Positions 6,243-13,831 of a stretch of 54,538 bases of DNA are shown piece after piece (position 1 is the stretch's first letter; every line of letters starts with the position of its first letter). The DNA lies in assembly GCA_018262235.1 (NCBI GenBank), contig JAGTRY010000014.1:1-54538 (forward strand). Reading direction: 5' to 3'. A program made the position numbers and the translations under genes. The notes under the pieces were generated by a model that made no database searches, had not been told where the DNA came from, and was given only the letters and a program-made list of their open reading frames with translations. The stretch is from Pseudomonadota bacterium (GTDB lineage: Bacteria > Pseudomonadota > Gammaproteobacteria > Burkholderiales > Rhodocyclaceae).

Positions 6243-6256
6243 GTTAATCGTTTTCC
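6243..6256 (+). promoter_or_regulatory. Putative upstream LacI-type operator (copy 1)
   Basis: GTTAATCGTTTTCC. Its first 11 bases are identical to the operator at 11460-11473. It lies about 160 bases upstream of the promoter-proximal copy at 6401-6416, a spacing compatible with looping by a tetrameric LacI-family repressor. The right half-site is degenerate. Confidence 0.5.
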
Positions 6257-6389
6257 TGTTTTGCTTCAAAAGGGCCCGCGTTCGTTCATGGAGCGGGCTT
6301 GTGTCAGCAGGCAAGAGTGGGCGCGGGCATGCATCATCCGCATTCACAACAAGCAGCCGCTACGGACAGAATGTCTGGAAAATTCTTCA

Positions 6390-6418
6390 TTGACAATGGA
6401 GGTTAAACGTTTTACCTT
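6390..6418 (+). promoter_or_regulatory. Sigma-70-type promoter of the solute-binding protein gene
   Basis: TTGACA at 6390-6395 matches the -35 consensus exactly. A 17-bp spacer leads to TACCTT (6413-6418), a weak -10. The start codon is at 6481, giving a leader of about 55 bases. Confidence 0.55.
6401..6416 (+). promoter_or_regulatory. Putative LacI-family operator (copy 2) in the promoter spacer
   Basis: GGTTAAACGTTTTACC is a 16-bp near-palindrome with one mismatched pair, centred on CG as is typical of LacI-family operators. It fills the -35/-10 spacer, so bound repressor would block RNA polymerase. It shares GTTAA-N-CGTTT with the copies at 6243 and 11460. Confidence 0.65.
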
Positions 6419-6480
6419 GAGATTGTCCGAAGCGCTTCCAGAGCGTACCGGTTTGACCTGCATACCAAAGGAGTCTGCTC

Positions 6481-8397
6481 ATGTCTGTTTCCACCCTGCG
6501 GCCTGTCTGGCTTTGTGCCGTAGCTGCTGCTGTTCTCGCCGGTCCGTCTGGTGCGCTTGCCTTCAGCGAAGCACCGGTTCTTGCCAAGGCTGTTCAGGAG
6601 AAAAAACTCAATCCGGTTGACAAGCGCCTGCCGGAAAAACCGGAAGTCATCGCGCCGGTCAGCAAGGTTGGCAGCTATGGCGGCACCCTGCGCACAGCAA
6701 TGCGCAGCAACGCCGATCAGAACAGCATCACCCGGGTTGTCAGCGGGCAGGGGCTGGTCCGGTGGTCGATGGATTTCAACAAAGTGCTACCGAATCTGGC
6801 TGAAAGCTGGACGCTCAGCCCGGATGGCAGTGAGTACACCTTCAAGCTGCGTCGTGGCACACGCTGGTCCGATGGCACGCTCTTCACGGCAGATGATGTG
6901 CTCTTCGCCATGGGCGATGTGGTCTACAACAAGCAATTCTTCGTCAACCCGCCTGAGCAATACAGCGCCAAGGACCAGCCGGCTGTTCTCAGCAAGCTCG
7001 ACGACTACACCGTACGTTTCAAATTTGCCGGCCCCAATCTGAGTTTCGTCGAACAGCTCGCCACGCCGCTTGGCCAGCATCCAACGCTCTACCAGAAAGC
7101 CTATTGTGGCCAGTTCCATCCCAAGTACAACCCCAGGGTTGATGAGCTGATTGCCAAGGAAAAGGTCAAGGACTGGGCGGCGCTGATGCGCCTGAAATGT
7201 GGCGATATCGAGGTGCCGACGCGCTGGGGCAATCCGGAAAAACCGACGCTGGATCCCTGGATCATCAAGGAACCCTACACCGGCAGCGCGACGCGTGTGA
7301 CGCTCGAACGCAACCCGTATTTCTGGCAGGTCGACACGGCGGGTCAGCAACTGCCCTATATCGACCGTGTGCAGTTCCAGATCATTTCCGAAGTGGAAAC
7401 CATCGTGCTTGCTGCCATCAATGGTCAGCTCGATTACCAGCATCGCCACATCTTCGGCATCCAGAACCGTCCGATCCTCTCCGAGAATACCGCCAAGGGC
7501 GGCTACCGCATGATGGCCTTGCCGGGCACGGGCGCCAACTCGGTCGGTCTGTGGCTCAACCACTCGACCAAGAACGCCAAGCTGCGTCCCTTCCTGCGCA
7601 ACAAGGATGTACGCATCGCCCTGTCGCTGGCAACGGACCGCAAGGAGATCAACGACATCGTCTACCTCGGGCAAGGCATGCCCTGGCAGATCGGGCCGCT
7701 CAAGCAATCCAAGTGGTACAACGAAAAGCTTGGTACGCAATACCTGAATTACGATCTCAAGCGTGCCAACGAGATACTTGATCGTGCCGGGCTGGCCAAA
7801 CGCGATGCTGACGGCATGCGCGCTTATCCGGAAGGTGGTCGCGTTTCGATCAATGCCATCGTGTCGATTGCGCAGACCAACCAGATGGAAGCGCTGGAGC
7901 TGATCCGCAAGCAATGGGCCAAGGCCGGTATCGAGCTGAACCTTCTTTCCTCCGAACGCTCACTGTTCTACGACCGCGCAACCAACAATGACTACGACAT
8001 CAGTGTCGACATCATTCCCGGCGGCATGGACATCACCATGAACCCGCGTGCCGTGGTGGCGGTGCACCCGCTCGAATCGCGCATGAGCCTGCCCTGGGTG
8101 CGCTGGTTCATGTCCAACGGCAAACAGGGCGAAGAGCCGCCAGCCAGCATGAAGAAGCGCATGCAACTCTACGAACAGTGGCAGACCGCCGCCAGTCCGG
8201 CCCTGGCGGAATCCCTGTTCAAGCAGATCCTGGAAATCGCCGCGGATGAATTCGAAGTCATCGGGGTGATCCGTTCGCCCAATGACACGGCGATTCGCAG
8301 CGCAAAACTGCAAAACGTATACGAACAGATGCTGATCAGCTGGACCTACCCCAACCCCGGCCCGGCCTTGCCGCAGCAGTGGTTCTTCGCGAAATGA
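6481..8397 (+). CDS. ABC transporter periplasmic solute-binding protein, family 5 (orphan)
   Basis: Secreted binding protein (638 residues) of the SBP_bac_5 / COG0747 family, which binds peptides or, in some clades, oligosaccharides. A signal peptide is visible (basic start, LCAVAAAVLAGPSGALA, cleavage near residue 27). The mature protein has the family segments KVGSYGGTL, LVRWSMDFNKVLPNLAESW, SPDGSEYTFKLRRGTRWSDG and FTADDVLFAMGDV near the N-terminus, and ends PNPGPALPQQWFFAK. No permease or ATPase gene lies next to it: a terminator follows directly and the upstream gene diverges. It must therefore share a transporter encoded elsewhere or serve another role. The LacI-type operators in its promoter suggest a carbohydrate ligand; that is inference. 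The start ATG has AAAGGAG about 9 bases upstream. Confidence 0.88.
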   Translation: MSVSTLRPVWLCAVAAAVLAGPSGALAFSEAPVLAKAVQEKKLNPVDKRLPEKPEVIAPVSKVGSYGGTLRTAMRSNADQNSITRVVSGQGLVRWSMDFNKVLPNLAESWTLSPDGSEYTFKLRRGTRWSDGTLFTADDVLFAMGDVVYNKQFFVNPPEQYSAKDQPAVLSKLDDYTVRFKFAGPNLSFVEQLATPLGQHPTLYQKAYCGQFHPKYNPRVDELIAKEKVKDWAALMRLKCGDIEVPTRWGNPEKPTLDPWIIKEPYTGSATRVTLERNPYFWQVDTAGQQLPYIDRVQFQIISEVETIVLAAINGQLDYQHRHIFGIQNRPILSENTAKGGYRMMALPGTGANSVGLWLNHSTKNAKLRPFLRNKDVRIALSLATDRKEINDIVYLGQGMPWQIGPLKQSKWYNEKLGTQYLNYDLKRANEILDRAGLAKRDADGMRAYPEGGRVSINAIVSIAQTNQMEALELIRKQWAKAGIELNLLSSERSLFYDRATNNDYDISVDIIPGGMDITMNPRAVVAVHPLESRMSLPWVRWFMSNGKQGEEPPASMKKRMQLYEQWQTAASPALAESLFKQILEIAADEFEVIGVIRSPNDTAIRSAKLQNVYEQMLISWTYPNPGPALPQQWFFAK

Positions 8398-8409
8398 GTA
8401 CGTGAAACA

Positions 8410-8447
8410 AAAGCCCCGTTTCGGTCATGCCGGGGCGGGGCTTTTTA
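8410..8447 (+). terminator. Rho-independent terminator after the solute-binding protein gene
   Basis: AAAGCCCCG (8410-8418) pairs with CGGGGCTTT (8436-8444), followed by TTAT. It lies 12 bases after the stop codon and closes a monocistronic unit. Confidence 0.85.
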
Positions 8448-8698
8448 TGGGAGGCTGGAGACGCGCATCGGGCAGACTTCTGCTGTGGGGGGGGCTGGAG
8501 ATGGCCGTGTGGCGTGGGTTTCAGGCTAGTGGCTCAGATCGACCCGGTGTGGTCGGTCGAAATATCGGGAAGCAGACGTTCAGGTAAGGGCGGGTTAGCC
8601 GCAGGCGTAACCCGCGCGGAGTGGGGCGTCATATTCGTCAGCGCGGCTCAATGACCCGACAAGGCTATTGAAAAGCAGACGTTTGAACGTAAAAGCTC
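8448..8698. other. Gene-free spacer with short repeats
   Basis: No convincing gene. It holds an 11-base direct repeat AAGCAGACGTT (8570-8580 and 8673-8683) and a short inverted repeat GCGGGTTA...TAACCCGC near 8590-8616 of the style of intergenic palindromic repeats. Confidence 0.4.
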
Positions 8699-8734
8699 AG
8701 GGGCGCTAAGCCGGCTTGCCGGCTTAGCGCCCCT
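8699..8734. repeat. Perfect 17-bp hairpin overlapping the stop codon of the unknown gene
   Basis: The arms AGGGGCGCTAAGCCGGC (8699-8715) and 8718-8734 are exact reverse complements separated by TT. The stop codon of the minus-strand gene (8724-8726) lies in one arm. The T-run that would make a classical terminator is poor on either strand (CTTTTA on minus), so it may be a terminator, an mRNA 3' stabiliser or a palindromic insertion. Confidence 0.75.
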
Positions 8735-9323
8735 CTGGAGCAGTGGGGTAACTTTCAGACGCATCTGCTGGTTGAGCTTCAAGGTACCGAACGATATTGA
8801 AGGCGACAGCCTGAATGCAGTTTCGATAGTGGAACAGAATGCCGACAAAAGACTGGAACAAGAAGAATGAGAACAGGCCTGAGTCTCTCAACCGCCGGAA
8901 AAGCTCTCGTTTGGCTGGATTTAAATGAACAATCCCGCCGTAGAAGATGGTGTCAAATACATCGCGGTTTGTGGTTTCTTCTCTGCCTCGAAACTGCACC
9001 AGACTTCGAGAATTAAGTTTGCCGTTGAGATCCTGAGTGGCATGCTGTATTGCCTCGCGGTAAATTGCATAGGTACTCTGCCATTCTTCTGACAGTGAAT
9101 TGATCTTGCGAATTGAAAAACCATCTTGGTCTTGAATAAGCAGTCTCAATGTTAGGCAGAATGAGTCAAGCGCTTCTGGGCTAAGACCGTCGTGGCTAAG
9201 CCAATCACCCGCGATGATGCGCCCCATATCGGACGCCCCCCGCCTTTGGGTTGCCCATTGCCAAAACGTGCTCTTCTCCAACTTGTACGCGGTTTCGACG
9301 AAGAGGATCAGTTCATCCGCCAT
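8724..9323 (-). CDS. Hypothetical protein in a low-GC islet
   Basis: A 199-residue protein I do not recognise. The ATG at 9323 (MADELILFVETAYKLEK) is preferred; an in-frame ATG 25 codons upstream would add a hydrophobic stretch, and no clear ribosome binding site decides between them. The protein is mixed alpha/beta-looking with no signal peptide, a basic segment (AKRELFRRLRDSG) and a hydrophobic aromatic stretch LFSFFLFQSFVGILFHY around residues 150-167, which may be a membrane or membrane-associating helix. Base composition is visibly lower in GC than the flanking genes, and the next features upstream are an insertion-sequence relic and a palindromic repeat, so recent acquisition is likely. 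The stop codon is embedded in a perfect hairpin. Confidence 0.6.
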   Translation of the reverse strand: MADELILFVETAYKLEKSTFWQWATQRRGASDMGRIIAGDWLSHDGLSPEALDSFCLTLRLLIQDQDGFSIRKINSLSEEWQSTYAIYREAIQHATQDLNGKLNSRSLVQFRGREETTNRDVFDTIFYGGIVHLNPAKRELFRRLRDSGLFSFFLFQSFVGILFHYRNCIQAVAFNIVRYLEAQPADASESYPTAPEGR

Positions 9324-9432
9324 GACTAGAAAGCTAATGAGGGTGTAGAAAAATGCATCAGATAGCCAGATCGTGACGTGAACCATCTGGAATATCAAGA
9401 CTCAAAGATCGTGATTGGATTAAGGAGTCTTC

Positions 9433-9480
9433 ATGGCACGCTACAAGCCCATCGACACCACCGCGTACGGCGTACTCTGA
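9433..9480 (+). pseudogene. Relic of an IS1182-type transposase gene (first codons only)
   Basis: The reading frame ATG at 9433 encodes MARYKPIDTTAYGVL and then a stop. MARYKPIDT is the characteristic N-terminus of IS1182-family transposases, which continue for about 450 more residues; here homology ends after roughly 10 codons. A strong Shine-Dalgarno (AAGGAG, 9422-9427) is kept. About 70 upstream bases may be the element's left end. The remainder has been deleted, with the 109-bp palindromic element starting 17 bases later. Confidence 0.6.
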
Positions 9481-9496
9481 ACAATCCGGCACGACT

Positions 9497-9605
9497 CGTA
9501 GGGTGTCAATGAGCGAAGCGAATTGCACCGTATGAACATGCGTGACGTTAATCCACCCAATCCGGCGCAATTCGCTTCGCTCATTGTTCCCTTCGGCGCC
9601 CTACG
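9497..9605. repeat. 109-bp imperfect palindromic intergenic element
   Basis: The ends CGTAGGG and CCCTACG are inverted. Inside, a 20-base block at 9507-9526 (CAATGAGCGAAGCGAATTGC) is repeated exactly in reverse complement at 9567-9586. The right arm has about 9 extra bases (near 9587-9597), the only real break in symmetry. This resembles the REP/MITE-like repeats common between genes in pseudomonads and betaproteobacteria. It codes for nothing recognisable. Confidence 0.75.
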
Positions 9606-9671
9606 AACGCCCGCTTCCGGGCCACATTACCGACCGTCCGCTCCTGGCCGGCGTCCGCCTGATCACACGTA

Positions 9672-10148
9672 TTAGAGCGGCGTTGACTCAGTGAATAGAC
9701 GCTCTGTCTTCGGATTGAAGCCTTGGCGATTGAACGCGCCTTTTGCGGCAATGTTTTTTGACCACACATCTAACTCCACTCTCATGTAACCGTAGCTTGC
9801 CGCGAACTCGATGGCATGTTGGATGATCCCGTGACCGATACCACTCATTCGTTTTGACGATGAAACCGCAACATGATCTATGTATGCAAATTTGTGCGCA
9901 TGCATAAATGGGTTTTGCGGCCGAGTAATGAATTTTAAGATCAGATACGCATCGATCGCTGCATCGTTCTCAGCAACAAAAACGTATGTGTTTTCGGCTT
10001 GGATTTGTGCTGTGAGCCAGTCTGAGACTTCGGTCTCGCTCGGAATGCAGAACACTTCCGGTGCAATCTTCACGTGAATCGCTTGCACCTCAAGGTTGAG
10101 GATCGCGATTTGCTCAATATCACTGTTTGTTGCTTGGCGTATAGCCAT
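9672..10148 (-). CDS. GNAT-family N-acetyltransferase
   Basis: Probable acetyl-CoA-dependent N-acetyltransferase (158 residues) of the GNAT superfamily. The ATG at 10148 (MAIRQATNSDIEQIAILNL) matches the usual beta1-alpha1 start of the fold. The acetyl-CoA pyrophosphate loop is seen as VSSSKRMSGIGHGII around residues 97-111 (R-x-x-G-x-G), followed by the amphipathic helix AIEFAASYGYMRVELDVW and the C-terminal KGAFNRQGF strand-helix typical of the family. The substrate is unknown. Like the unknown gene at 8724 it is poorer in GC than its surroundings and stands next to IS and repeat debris, pointing to horizontal acquisition. An upstream in-frame ATG (10184) would add 12 unconserved residues. 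Confidence 0.82.
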   Translation of the reverse strand: MAIRQATNSDIEQIAILNLEVQAIHVKIAPEVFCIPSETEVSDWLTAQIQAENTYVFVAENDAAIDAYLILKFITRPQNPFMHAHKFAYIDHVAVSSSKRMSGIGHGIIQHAIEFAASYGYMRVELDVWSKNIAAKGAFNRQGFNPKTERLFTESTPL

Positions 10149-10246
10149 GATGGGATTAGTTCTAACGAATGAAGTGAACACCAACGCATCCGATTATTGG
10201 AATATTGGTCAATACGCGCTGTCAGGCAGAACCTTGACGCCAGGTA

Positions 10247-10269
10247 GCGTGGGCTCGGTGAGCCCACGC
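10247..10269. repeat. Perfect 10-bp stem hairpin downstream of the LacI-family gene
   Basis: GCGTGGGCTC (10247-10256) and GAGCCCACGC (10260-10269) around the loop GGT. There is no T-run on the minus strand, so termination of the LacI gene here would be atypical; a REP-like repeat is the other reading. Confidence 0.6.
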
Positions 10270-10311
10270 GTTTGTCTTACCGTGAATGCCTGCTCTTGGC
10301 CGATATTCGCC

Positions 10312-11310
10312 TCAAGCCATCCGCGCCGTCGATGCCCTCGGCACCAGCCTCGGCTCCAGCAATACATCACTGGCATTCGTCGATTCGCCGCGCACGGCTT
10401 CGAGCAGCAGTTTCATGGCGGCTTCGCCTTGCTCTTCACTGCGCATGTTGACGGTGGTCAGGGCCGGTTGCATGAAGGCGGCGACCGGAATGTCGTCAAA
10501 GCCGGTAATGGCCACATCTTCCGGAATGCGGATGCCAAGTGACTGGGCTTCGTGCATCAAGCCGATGGCAACCAGATCGTTGTAACAGACTACGGCGTCA
10601 GGCCGCTGGCTGTTCAGCAGCAAGGCTGAGGCTTCGTGCTGGCCGCCTTCCATGGTCGGCAGTTCGACGGCGTGCTGTTGCGGTGTGAGGCCGGATTCGG
10701 CCAGCGCTTCGGTCAGGCCGGCGAGGCGTTCGCTATCCCAGCGTGCGCTGGGGAATCCCAGATAAGTGATGCGGCGGCGCCCGGTCTCCACCAGATGCCG
10801 ACCGAGCATGTAGGCGGCGCGATGGCCGTCGGTGCGTACACAACGCATGCCGGGTGCATCGCGGCGGCCGAAGAAGACAACCGGCTTGCCCAGATCACTG
10901 AGCCAGTCCAGGGCTTCATCGGGCAGGCGCGAACTGACGATCAGACCGTCCACGCGGCCGGTCAGGGCTTCGAGCAGGTGGCGTTCGTGGGCGGCACGCT
11001 CCTGTACGTCGACCACCAGCAGGTTGTAATCCTGCTCCAGGGCAATCCGGTTGGCGCCTTTGATGATGTTGGCAAAGTGCGGGTTGCGTACGTCCTGTAC
11101 GGCGAGGCCGAAGGTACGAGTCTGCCCGGTGACCATGCTGCGCGCCTGCTGGTTGAGGCGATAGCCCAGGCTGGTGATGGCTTCAGCAAGACGTTTCTCG
11201 ACGTCTGGTGTGAATCGTTGCAAGCCGTTCAGGAATTTCGACACGGTGGCGGTCGAGACCCCCGCAGCGGCGGCGACATCACGGATGGTGGGCGGGCGTT
11301 TCGGTGGCAT
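10312..11310 (-). CDS. LacI-family transcriptional regulator
   Basis: DNA-binding repressor (332 residues) of the LacI/GalR family, normally a sugar-responsive regulator. The N-terminal helix-turn-helix TIRDVAAAAGVSTATVSKFL (residues 8-27) is followed by the hinge region LNQQARSMVTGQTRTFGLAV and a periplasmic-binding-protein-like effector domain with GLIVSSRLPDEAL, VRTDGHRAAYMLGRHL, VCYNDLVAIGLM and ITGFDDIPVAAFMQPALTTV, all in family order. The effector is not predictable. It is divergent from the 615-residue enzyme gene, and a perfect inverted repeat (11337-11351) lies 26 bases upstream of its own start codon, fitting autoregulation. GTTAA-N-CGTTT operators in front of the enzyme and the solute-binding protein are its most plausible targets. 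Confidence 0.93.
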   Translation of the reverse strand: MPPKRPPTIRDVAAAAGVSTATVSKFLNGLQRFTPDVEKRLAEAITSLGYRLNQQARSMVTGQTRTFGLAVQDVRNPHFANIIKGANRIALEQDYNLLVVDVQERAAHERHLLEALTGRVDGLIVSSRLPDEALDWLSDLGKPVVFFGRRDAPGMRCVRTDGHRAAYMLGRHLVETGRRRITYLGFPSARWDSERLAGLTEALAESGLTPQQHAVELPTMEGGQHEASALLLNSQRPDAVVCYNDLVAIGLMHEAQSLGIRIPEDVAITGFDDIPVAAFMQPALTTVNMRSEEQGEAAMKLLLEAVRGESTNASDVLLEPRLVPRASTARMA

Positions 11311-11336
11311 GAGAGAGCAGGGCAGAACAAAGAGAA

Positions 11337-11351
11337 GGTAACAGCGTTACC
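11337..11351. promoter_or_regulatory. Perfect inverted repeat, putative operator for the LacI-family gene
   Basis: GGTAAC-AGC-GTTACC: two exact 6-bp arms around 3 bases, 26 bases upstream of the regulator's start. Odd spacing and different arms set it apart from the GTTAA-N-CGTTT sites, so it may be an autoregulatory site of lower similarity or bind another protein. Confidence 0.5.
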
Positions 11352-11422
11352 TTATGCGCCTTGGGGTTGTTTGGTCAAACCTTTCCATGTATTTCACGGG
11401 TCCCGGAAACGCGCTGGAATGC

Positions 11423-11451
11423 TTGACACCTCTGCGTACGCAGCATAAGCT
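11423..11451 (+). promoter_or_regulatory. Sigma-70-type promoter of the 615-residue enzyme gene
   Basis: TTGACA (11423-11428) is followed after exactly 17 bp by TAAGCT (11446-11451). The spacer contains the perfect palindrome TGCGTACGCA (11433-11442). Transcription would start near 11458, just at the operator. Confidence 0.65.
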
Positions 11452-11459
11452 CAATCAAA

Positions 11460-11473
11460 GTTAATCGTTTAAC
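11460..11473 (+). promoter_or_regulatory. Putative LacI-family operator (copy 3) at the transcription start
   Basis: GTTAATCGTTTAAC is a 14-bp palindrome with one mismatched pair and a central CG. It covers roughly +1 to +15 relative to the predicted promoter, a classic repressor position. It shares 11 consecutive bases with the copy at 6243. Confidence 0.7.
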
Positions 11474-11538: not shown

Positions 11539-13386
11539 ATGTCATTTCGCCAGCCGTTTGCAGCGGCATCCGCAAGCCTGTTTTCCGTTGATTTGCCACC
11601 TGGCGTACAGCGTCCCCGCATGGCTGGACTGGATCTGGACCGGATTGTCACGCACGCCCTGCTGCCCCAGCTTGATCATTTCTGCGCGCGCCTGCTGGCG
11701 GAGAAAAAAGAGGTCGTGATCGATGGAACGCCGGCCTTCAATGGCAAGGATAAATTCCTGCCCGGCAAGATTGCCATGGGCATGAGTTACCTGTTGCTCA
11801 ACACCTTGCCGGATGACCCGAAATTCCAGCGGTATCTGGAGGGTTTTCGCCAGATAGCCGATCTGACGTGTGATGACGCCAACGAAACCTGGGGCATTTA
11901 CTATTACACGTCGGCCCTGAACCGCTTGCGTCAGGCCGGTCTGCTGGAACAGGCCGTATCGCCCGCAAGCCTGGCGGCCTTGCGCGTGAAGCTGGACTGG
12001 CGAAGTTTTGTCGACGCGGCGGCATACACGCTGATCAATCTTCCAACCAACTACTACGGGGTGGCTTTCAGCATTGCGCGCTTGCGCCACCTGCTGGGCT
12101 GGGAAGATGAGCAGGGGAGCGAGATCCTGCTGCAGAAAACCGTGCAGCACTACCAGACCTATTCAGGCGAATTCGGCTTCTCGGATGAAACCGATGGCGA
12201 AGGGCGTTTTGACCGGTACAGCATCCTGTTGATCGGTGAGATCTGCCAGCGCTTCATCGAGACCGGAATGCCGGTTGCATCGAGCCTCAAGACCTGGTTG
12301 CGCCGTGCTGTGGATGTGATTCTGGTGCGCCTGAATCCTGCTGGAGACGGTTTCGAGTTTGGCCGCTCGATCGGCCCTTACGGTGATACCGCGTTCCTCG
12401 AAGTGCTGACGGCGGCCGCCCGGCTCGAACTTCTGACGGAGGATGAGCTGGACCTGGCTTATGCCTTTACTGTGGCCGCGGCGGCCAAGTATGCCGAGTT
12501 CTGGTTCGATCCTGCGACGCACTCGGTCAATCTCTGGGACAAGGGGCGCCGTACCGATGCCTATCGTGGCAAGCATCGCATCCTGGGCGAGAACCTGAGC
12601 TTGCTGCATCAGCTGATCTACACCAATCAGCACTGGAACGCGCTGGGTTTCCGTGGGCAGTTGCCGGTGGATGATTTTGCTGCGCGTCTGGCGAAGTTGC
12701 CGCGTTTCACGACTACCTGGTTTGCCCGGGGCGAGTACGACCGGGCCTTGATCACCTTCCGTGATGGCTTGCGTGTGGTGAGTCTGCCCATCATCAATGG
12801 GGGCAGTACCCAGCATGCCCACAACCCGTATTTTCCGATCCCGTTTTCAAACGGACTGGTGCAGGGCGCGGCGGATGCAGGCTGGCCGCAGTTGTTGCCA
12901 CGCTTCACGCTTGCCGATGGCAGCGAACTGATCCCCGCGGCATTCCAGCGTGATATCCGTTGTGAGGAGCAGGGCAGCGCCTTGCAGGTGAGCTATCAGC
13001 AGAGCGAACTGGATCGTATTGGTGGCGTGGCGCCCGTGAAGGATTGCCGATTGATTGTTGAAACGGTCTATACGCTTGATTCCGGTGTCATTACCCGCAC
13101 TGATCGTTTCACGCCAGCCGAGCGCCTGACTGGCGTGGATATCACGCTTGAGTTTGCGAGCTTCAGCCGAATCAGTCAGCAGATTGGCCATACGGTGCAG
13201 TTTACCGATGGGGCCGCGGCAGCATTTTGCATCGAAGGTCTGGAGGAATGCCGGGTGGAGAGCGTCAGCAGTGATCCGCTCTATCGCGCGCCGATGGGTC
13301 AGCTCCATGCCTGTGTGCGGGCGGCCACGCGCAAGGCAACGCTGGATCGGGCTTTTTCGATCCGCTGGAGCTTGCGTTATCGTTGA
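11539..13386 (+). CDS. Uncharacterised (alpha/alpha)-toroid protein, DUF2264-like; candidate carbohydrate-active enzyme
   Basis: A 615-residue protein without signal peptide, hence probably cytoplasmic. The ATG at 11539 is chosen because CAGGAG stands 10 bases upstream; an earlier ATG at 11512 lacks one. I do not recognise a named enzyme. The layout looks like a helical toroid (about 1-390) with NYYGVAFSIARLRHLLGW near 168, EFGFSDETDGEGRFDRYSIL near 206 and EFGRSIGPYGDTAF near 272, followed by a beta-rich C-terminal part (about 395-615). This order (Asn-aromatic segment, D/E-R-x-D-R-Y segment, FGRS segment, beta-sandwich) recalls DUF2264 and related polysaccharide-lyase-like proteins; the resemblance is from memory and remote. 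Its LacI-type operator and divergent LacI gene support a sugar-catabolic role. A truncated haemoglobin gene follows 46 bases later. Confidence 0.7.
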   Translation: MSFRQPFAAASASLFSVDLPPGVQRPRMAGLDLDRIVTHALLPQLDHFCARLLAEKKEVVIDGTPAFNGKDKFLPGKIAMGMSYLLLNTLPDDPKFQRYLEGFRQIADLTCDDANETWGIYYYTSALNRLRQAGLLEQAVSPASLAALRVKLDWRSFVDAAAYTLINLPTNYYGVAFSIARLRHLLGWEDEQGSEILLQKTVQHYQTYSGEFGFSDETDGEGRFDRYSILLIGEICQRFIETGMPVASSLKTWLRRAVDVILVRLNPAGDGFEFGRSIGPYGDTAFLEVLTAAARLELLTEDELDLAYAFTVAAAAKYAEFWFDPATHSVNLWDKGRRTDAYRGKHRILGENLSLLHQLIYTNQHWNALGFRGQLPVDDFAARLAKLPRFTTTWFARGEYDRALITFRDGLRVVSLPIINGGSTQHAHNPYFPIPFSNGLVQGAADAGWPQLLPRFTLADGSELIPAAFQRDIRCEEQGSALQVSYQQSELDRIGGVAPVKDCRLIVETVYTLDSGVITRTDRFTPAERLTGVDITLEFASFSRISQQIGHTVQFTDGAAAAFCIEGLEECRVESVSSDPLYRAPMGQLHACVRAATRKATLDRAFSIRWSLRYR

Positions 13387-13432: not shown

Positions 13433-13831
13433 GTGACCACCACCCCTTCCGATCTGACGCCTTATGCCGAATTGGGCGGAGAGCCTGCCATCCGCGATCT
13501 GGTGAATCGTTTCTACGATCTGATGGACGAATTGCCCGAAGCCTATGTGGTGCGCAAGCTGCATCCGGAGAGCCTGGCAGGGTCACGCCAGAAACTTTTC
13601 GAATATCTCTGTGGCTGGCTGGGCGGGCCACAGCACTATGTCGAGAAATACGGGCATCCGCGCATGCGCGCGCGCCACATGCCGTTTGCGATAGGCGAGG
13701 CTGAGCGTGATGCCTGGCTGCTGTGCATGCTGCAGGCGCTCGAAGAAATTCTGCCGGCCAGCGCAGCGCGGGAGGCGTTCCGCGAAAGGCTCGTCGGGCT
13801 GGCTGATTTCATGCGCAATCGAGATGGCTGA
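13433..13831 (+). CDS. Truncated haemoglobin, group II (GlbO-type)
   Basis: Small haem protein (132 residues) that binds O2 or NO. The frame has no nearby ATG; the GTG at 13433 gives the normal family length. Group II features are visible: Tyr28 in the B-helix (RFYDLMD), LCGWLGGPQHYVEKYGHPR, the proximal haem ligand His82 in RARHMPFAIG, and the group-defining Trp95 in ERDAWLLCM. It starts 46 bases after the stop of the 615-residue enzyme gene on the same strand, with no terminator in between, so it may be cotranscribed from the LacI-controlled promoter; a functional link is unexplained. Confidence 0.9.
   Translation: MTTTPSDLTPYAELGGEPAIRDLVNRFYDLMDELPEAYVVRKLHPESLAGSRQKLFEYLCGWLGGPQHYVEKYGHPRMRARHMPFAIGEAERDAWLLCMLQALEEILPASAAREAFRERLVGLADFMRNRDG

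Follow-up and report, generated by a model that had tools for sequence, protein, structure and literature searches.

Do three copies of a short operator-like word join a solute-binding protein, a repressor and an enzyme into one regulon and, if so, for what substrate? The question is raised by a 54,538-nucleotide stretch of DNA from a bacterium of the Rhodocyclaceae (contig JAGTRY010000014.1 of assembly GCA_018262235.1; the whole stretch is referred to as the window). It encodes a solute-binding protein (SBP; 6481–8397, forward strand), a LacI-family repressor (10312–11310, reverse strand), and a 615-residue enzyme (11539–13386, forward strand). An earlier reading of the sequence (the original prediction) proposed that a single LacI repressor acts at these sites to control uptake of an oligosaccharide and its breakdown. 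We find that the regulon idea holds, and that its content is wider and better defined than that reading could see. The explanation as a whole – a LacI regulon for polyuronide uptake and breakdown – we consider likely, and a small conserved gene set probably cuts, imports and digests a glucuronic-acid-type polysaccharide. This kind of system is known, and a local LacI regulon is ordinary; the enzyme family is one without a name in Pfam, NCBIfam and PDB sequence searches.

Operator sites and their target genes

The three 14-mers are located as predicted, all on the forward strand: operator 1, GTTAATCGTTTTCC (6243–6256), is an additional upstream site of the SBP gene, operator 2, GTTAAACGTTTTAC (6402–6415), lies in the -35/-10 region of the SBP promoter, and operator 3, GTTAATCGTTTAAC (11460–11473), is between lacI and the enzyme gene. 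The original description also holds for the SBP gene, for the long enzyme frame and for the LacI gene divergent from it. In the genome-wide motif scan proposed with the original prediction, the pattern GTTAANCGTTT matches with 0 mismatches at three places in the whole genome (3,956,202 bp in 199 contigs, 97% complete), all at promoters and within a 5.2-kb stretch of the window, but the total is no higher than that of a control, the same pattern read backwards, which matches six times. The word is therefore not over-represented genome-wide and it is the clustering that is unusual; by our own arithmetic the chance of three random matches falling inside 5.2 kb is ~5e-6. When one mismatch is allowed there are six matches in the window (four distinct places, two of them matched on both strands) compared with 0.93 expected, and none of 100 shuffles reaches six.

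Promoter-like elements can be read by eye around both proximal sites, in agreement with the placement first proposed. Operator 2 starts 6 bp after a -35-like TTGACA (6390–6395, forward strand), and operator 3 is located ten bp after the second element of a forward-strand pair (11423–11449) consisting of TTGACA (11423–11428), 15 bp, and CATAAG (11444–11449). Neither promoter was reported by a consensus promoter scanner, which gave another in the SBP region at 6343–6372; we judge the spacing conserved in relatives (below) to be better, if sequence-based, promoter evidence than the scanner. Repression fits the positions of the predicted operators, one within the -35/-10 region and one shortly past the expected start.

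Searching 101 genomes (this one included) with the enzyme showed that five contain it, and the enzyme's surroundings were read in three of its congeners (G001, G005 and G007) and in a relative from another genus (G019), which has two enzyme copies. In each of the three congeners a LacI orthologue with 84–89% identity adjoins the enzyme. The SBP is near the enzyme in G001 (76% identity) and G005 (77%), beside one enzyme copy in G019 (75%, with no LacI match there), and on the same contig about 78 kb from the enzyme in G007 (85%). An identical GTTAATCGTTTAAC precedes the enzyme gene and an identical GTTAAACGTTTTAC precedes the SBP gene in all three congeners, and the SBP site has one difference in G019. 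In all five SBP promoters read, TTGAC plus one base is followed after 6 nt by the operator; in the enzyme promoters TTGAC plus one base is followed after 15 bp by CATAAG, CATACG or CCTAAT in G007, G005 and G001, respectively. The extra upstream SBP site has a counterpart in one of the four relatives, G007 (GGTAATCGTTTTCC, L167:7453), where it lies 178 bp from the proximal site versus 159 bp in the window. DNA looping between the two SBP sites was considered and set aside, both spacings being near whole helical turns with n=2 only. Among 16 sites collected from regulon-type genes, positions 1, 3–5, 7–8 and 10–11 are invariant.

The repressor has an N-terminal helix-turn-helix domain (PF00356, E 2.8e-11) and an effector domain (PF13377, E 1.5e-38), both above cut-off. 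We asked how often such a repressor and the sites occur together, using 80 enzyme loci kept from 111 enzyme-encoding stretches (one-genome-per-species contigs) and the motif of the original prediction, with at most one mismatch and in the interval from 350 bp upstream to 100 bp downstream of the enzyme start. A LacI protein with at least 42% identity (46–89%) is encoded in 29 of the 80 loci, and the motif is present in 27 of these 29. It is found in 7 of the 51 loci without such a LacI (one of which, L049, has almost no upstream sequence) and in 66 of 3362 random 450-bp stretches of the same loci. The LacI proteins include those of 26 further enzyme loci, mostly Massilia/Duganella, at ~46–56% identity, and have a near-identical recognition helix, AT[VI]SK[FY]. 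In Massilia-type loci there are more sites: between a short-chain dehydrogenase/reductase (SDR) gene and lacI, before the gene preceding a TonB-dependent receptor (TBDR) gene, and between genes for a PF05426 protein and a glycoside hydrolase of family GH88. The CG-centred palindromes are thus conserved and track the LacI gene across loci, and from this sequence pattern we hold with high confidence that they are LacI operators of these genes.

A fourth gene emerges from a refined pattern, GKWAAWCGWTTWMC, which was built after seeing the relatives' sites and is therefore partly circular. It matches with 0 mismatches at five places in the genome, four of them at three target genes and the fifth inside a gene on contig C23. 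One of the four, GGTAATCGTTTAAC, is on contig C20, 71 bp before a gene for a 429-residue PF05426 protein (E 2.6e-79) with an N-terminus that looks signal-like by eye. Its orthologues in G007 (81%) and G005 (72%) have an exact site at the same place. The nearest PDB chains, 3nfv and 8bdq, are both named alginate lyase, and identity is 44% with the one PF05426 protein encoded by Brevundimonas SH203, which we take to be CUL-I, an enzyme of polysaccharide lyase (PL) family PL38. The C20 protein is a candidate PL38-like lyase and is probably exported. A single repressor for uptake and breakdown, as first proposed, is thus consistent with an operator that is common to the SBP and enzyme genes, conserved, and co-occurring with the LacI orthologue, but the list of targets was incomplete. 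Among eight genomes scanned, all exact sites in G007 (four of four), G005 (three of three) and G001 (two of two) are at regulon genes, and there is no exact site in G002 or G019.

A bigger regulon in this genome was also considered and not adopted. Of those near-matches that were read, the ones on C5, C23, C25, C112, C146, C162 and C196 fall inside called genes. On C84 an O-antigen-ligase-type gene begins at the near-match, on C36 the near-match separates a DAHP-synthase gene from a PPK2-type gene, and on C100 and C132 it is next to genes without a name; the reading covered these contigs, with further near-matches, C159 and C163 included, lying outside it.

The enzyme and the binding protein

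The enzyme was first described as DUF2264-like. It matches no Pfam family at E<=10 and no NCBIfam entry at E<=0.001, so DUF2264 – which we take to be PF10022 – is rejected, and a profile of 56 sequences finds no PDB sequence match (best E 0.09, unrelated). The fold is instead that of polysaccharide lyases. A model built from the 56 sequences (mean pLDDT 91.6, pTM 0.91) has helices to about residue 384 followed by a beta-sandwich-like part, and Foldseek matches it to 91 PDB chains at E<=0.001, with E values from 5e-12, probability 1.00, and chain-spanning alignments. Among the 50 best-listed of these 91 matches are 47 lyases, one glucuronate dehydratase and two alpha-mannosidases; the lyases include PL33 hyaluronan lyase, GAGase II and VII, hyaluronate/chondroitin lyases, heparinase III types, PL17 enzymes and others. 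N171, Y172 and Y227 are invariant in the 56 sequences, with a spacing of 55 compared with 56 for H202 and Y258 of Alg17c, its named mutants; by spacing only, they are candidates for the catalytic Asn/His and Tyr of these lyases. We consider it quite probable that the enzyme is a lyase, perhaps of exo-type.

Where the enzyme acts may differ among lineages. Of 79 enzymes scored by a crude hydrophobicity heuristic (a 12-residue mean of at least 1.85 before the conserved part, with three enzymes lacking an anchor), 73 begin with an export-like N-terminus; by the same heuristic the window enzyme has no clear signal peptide. The six below the cut-off are the window protein, L025 and L047 (the same gene), L040, L042 and L038, and among the enzymes with a link to the SBP or the close LacI, of which six are distinct, they account for five; the sixth, L039, scores 2.18, in a region that may precede the real start. 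As far as N-terminal sequences can suggest, the enzyme thus appears to have changed from an exported to a cytoplasmic form in those lineages that have an importer.

The original prediction described the binding protein as an orphan, yet it is of a known and structurally solved type. It belongs to the SBP_bac_5 family (PF00496), and its best PDB match is the polyuronate-binding SPH1118 of Sphingomonas sp. A1 (PDB 7VEQ–7VEW), at 59% identity and 830 bits in phmmer over query residues 27–638. SPH1118 is reported to bind pectin, polygalacturonate and unsaturated trigalacturonate, and to be required for pectin chemotaxis and full pectin assimilation (PMC7055323, PMC9314435). We compared 14 contact residues taken from PMC9314435. 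All seven contacts of subsite 1, which holds the reducing-end uronate (N53, R57, E216, R466, R496, E505 and W594), are kept in the SBP. Of the seven trigalacturonate contacts at subsites 2–3 (L295, S298, N324, R438, D483, V484 and F592) only D483 is kept, a count to be read with the points that L295 makes a backbone contact, V484 to I is a mild change, and one residue is gapped in the alignment near 295–298. We therefore do not claim pectin specificity for the SBP; we read it as probably still a uronate binder, for another linkage or neighbouring residue. A matching SBP was found in one of 369 genomes of a class-wide sample, its own. In this same genome there is another SPH1118-like SBP (45–46% identity; C118:855–2687, L126), with no permease; an AraC-like gene and transposase-like pieces adjoin it, as read by eye.

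That the binding protein comes without a permease is right for its immediate neighbourhood, but an Opp-type permease pair and ATPase are encoded on contig C192 (22694–23839), in an operon cut by the contig end and with no operator nearby. This C192-type permease is possibly a shared transporter. In G019 the same permease operon is present, and the stretch read contains no SBP match.

A polyuronide pathway and its alternatives

Genes that accompany the enzyme point to uronates. In the 80 enzyme loci, with neighbour clusters named from one Pfam-annotated representative each, we find TBDR genes in 51, GH88 in 37, SDR/epimerase genes in 33 and the PF05426 type in 29, and 62 loci have at least one of the four. 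The 18 with none (L036–L049, L057, L063, L093 and L102) include the SBP-linked loci and the five named Halomonas. A Rugamonas locus encodes glucarate dehydratase and a GH3 enzyme (BglX), both above NCBIfam cut-offs, and a GH2 enzyme nearest to beta-glucuronidase, below cut-off; a Caulobacter locus encodes mannonate dehydratase, above cut-off. The sole NCBIfam match of the SDR is glucose-6-phosphate dehydrogenase, far below cut-off, and from its context the SDR might be read as a uronate dehydrogenase. Our genome has a KduI-family gene and an SDR gene related to that of an Oxalobacteraceae locus, with no exact site on their contigs. In an Oxalobacteraceae metagenome-assembled genome a chondroitinase-B-type (PF14592) gene has a variant of the site, GTTAAACGTTTTCT, in front of it (L050:4332–5928), and the LacI regulon may therefore recruit different lyases.

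A model of the pathway would run as follows. In the absence of substrate, the repressor would bind the palindrome GKTAAWCGWTTWMC at the promoters of the enzyme gene (possibly also its own gene), the SBP gene and the C20 lyase gene, and shut them off. When a glucuronate-type polyuronide is present – most likely one resembling beta-1,4-glucuronan – the exported lyase would cut it to unsaturated oligouronides, which the SBP would capture by the uronic acid in subsite 1 and pass to an Opp-type ATP-binding cassette permease. The 615-residue enzyme, as a beta-eliminating lyase that is cytoplasmic in this lineage, would convert the oligouronides to monomers, and a breakdown product would release the repressor. 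A glucuronan-like substrate is our preference by a modest degree of confidence.

Several observations weigh against this pathway or limit it. The lyase matches have TM-scores of about 0.3–0.56 and sequence identities of 9–13%, and with scores of about 0.5 at best they mean kinship of fold, no more. The Fisher p of 1e-12 for co-occurrence of site and LacI overstates independence because the loci share ancestry. In seven site-bearing loci, all Duganella, the fetched stretch shows no LacI match, two LacI loci (L072 and L107) have no site before the enzyme, and this LacI and the site are both absent from the loci of SH203 and Sphingomonas. Two of four exact sites in G006, which lacks the enzyme, are at regulon-type genes, one before its 63% identical LacI and one immediately ahead of the part of a PF05426 gene that shows homology; the single exact site of G004 has no related gene nearby, and the two in G003 have surroundings outside the reading. 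In the stretches read, no exact site accompanies the PF05426 gene of G001 (54%) or that of G019. On the transport side, a permease under the same operator is rejected, there being no site within two mismatches in five C192-type stretches; the permease operon of G005, G006 and G007 has its own SBP, 60–63% identical to that of the window (L182, L183 and L185); and G001 has no match to the C192 permease at E<=1e-60. For these reasons the transport route is a guess, and the SBP may have a role in chemotaxis, as SPH1118 does. Nor is the substrate fixed, since SPH1118 binds polygalacturonate and PL38 members act on glucuronan or alginate.

The same LacI regulon could serve homogalacturonan (pectin), with the SBP as an equivalent of SPH1118 and the lyases acting on alpha-1,4-galacturonate. 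The 59% identity to a protein that binds pectin, polygalacturonate and unsaturated trigalacturonate speaks for it, as does Dactylopiibacterium, a relative whose expressed proteins in cochineal are reported to include pectate lyase and rhamnogalacturonan lyase domains (PMC6463064). We nevertheless think it rather unlikely: six of the seven subsite 2–3 contacts differ, including Arg438, one of several key residues (Leu295 being a backbone contact, Val484 to Ile a mild change, and the alignment gapped by one residue near 295–298), the PF05426 lyase resembles PL38-type enzymes, and the Rugamonas locus has glucarate dehydratase and a beta-glucuronidase-like gene.

Alginate as the substrate, with the exported PF05426 lyase and the SBP followed by the enzyme as an oligoalginate lyase, would suit the names of the C20 lyase's nearest PDB chains, the PL17 oligoalginate lyases among the fold matches, and the inclusion in PL38 of the alginate-active Aly38A (PMC9029943, in part). 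The glucuronate-type genes in the Rugamonas locus speak against it, and we give it a small probability.

It is improbable, in our judgement, that the sites serve another LacI-family regulator encoded elsewhere. The local LacI would then bind, for example, a second palindrome, AAGGTAACAGCGTTACCTT (11335–11353, no strand assigned), which is 24 bp upstream of lacI and unlike the CG operator. It is conserved at lacI in G001, G005 and G007, and among 195 fetched loci the pattern occurs only there in these three genomes and the present one. Across the 80 loci, however, the presence of the site follows that of the LacI orthologue, G006 keeps an exact site before its lacI even without the enzyme, and the few genome sites are a misfit with a global regulator. 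With the CG-centred sites as the operators of the local LacI, AAGGTAACAGCGTTACCTT is possibly an autoregulatory site, another regulator's site or an RNA hairpin. Finally, chance likeness of AT-rich promoter words, which would explain why the genome total of three does not exceed the six of the reversed control, is already contradicted by three sites lying together, at promoters, and at the same places in other genomes, and has next to no probability.

Two neighbouring features were also noted. The truncated haemoglobin gene (13448–13831), which the original prediction had included, lies 61 bp downstream of the enzyme gene, and no exact site accompanies it; it is dropped as a member, there being no globin match in five 20-kb stretches of the four enzyme-bearing relatives. 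A 61% identical globin is encoded 3.4 kb from lacI in G006, which has no enzyme. The region between the SBP and lacI (8400–10300) contains a 224-residue open reading frame without family and a GNAT gene, with third-position GC contents (GC3) of 0.54 and 0.52 versus 0.70–0.75 for the SBP, lacI and enzyme genes; because GC3 is low and SBP and lacI are direct neighbours in G005, this region may be a later insertion.

Relation to known systems

None of the open-access papers that our searches listed describes this regulon or enzyme family, as far as titles and abstract beginnings show. The repressor resembles in type and proposed target the LacI-family uronate regulators ExuR, KdgR, UxaR and UxuR of glucuronate/galacturonate catabolism, treated in a comparative study of LacI-family transcription factors (PMC4052901, in part). 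It differs in setting: the available portion of that study places UxaR, UxuR and KdgR in Bacteroides, and the word Betaproteobacteria does not occur in its text.

The enzyme shares its fold with the polysaccharide lyases having an alpha/alpha-toroid and a beta-sandwich (presumably PL8, PL12, PL17, PL33 and PL35, as we take the family numbers to be), but is unlike them in its 9–13% identity and lack of a sequence-profile match. A family encoded in 111 genome stretches thus receives a fold and a simple assay.

The SBP is like SPH1118 in overall identity and in all seven subsite-1 uronate contacts. It is unlike SPH1118 at six of the seven subsite 2–3 positions, in having a LacI-type site and a lyase-fold enzyme gene beside it, and in having no adjacent permease, whereas genes of an Opp-type transporter lie near that of SPH1118 (PMC7055323). 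Polysaccharide-binding proteins of the SPH1118 type may thus extend beyond pectin.

A further parallel is Brevundimonas SH203, the source of two purified cellouronate lyases, CUL-I and CUL-II, whose genome is counted as having one PF05426 protein (PMC5477187). A reference in that paper is titled as an exo-type cellouronate lyase, and we take CUL-II, for which we found no named gene, to be the exo-type enzyme of a 2008 title. At the SH203 locus (L109, on NZ_BDMM01000003.1) a relative of our enzyme is divergent from a TBDR gene and from the genome's sole PF05426 gene, which presumably encodes CUL-I and whose product is the protein with 44% identity to the C20 lyase. Family, neighbourhood and fold suggest to us that the PF05426 gene is that of CUL-I and that the enzyme relative may be CUL-II. 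The two systems are alike in having an enzyme of this family and a PF05426 lyase, whose genes are neighbours in SH203, and unlike in that SH203 has neither this LacI nor the operator and that its enzyme has a hydrophobic N-terminus. We tentatively put these together, as a possibility rather less likely than not, by proposing that the enzyme founds an uncatalogued lyase family of beta-, alpha- and gamma-proteobacteria of which the SH203 member is the CUL-II gene product, and that the regulon is a dedicated uptake and digestion system for beta-glucuronan in which a move of the lyase to the cytoplasm went along with an SPH1118-type importer. The regulon links three proteins whose roles are uncertain, and a fourth gene on another contig, in one testable pathway, and the comparison with SH203 may supply the gene for the purified CUL-II.

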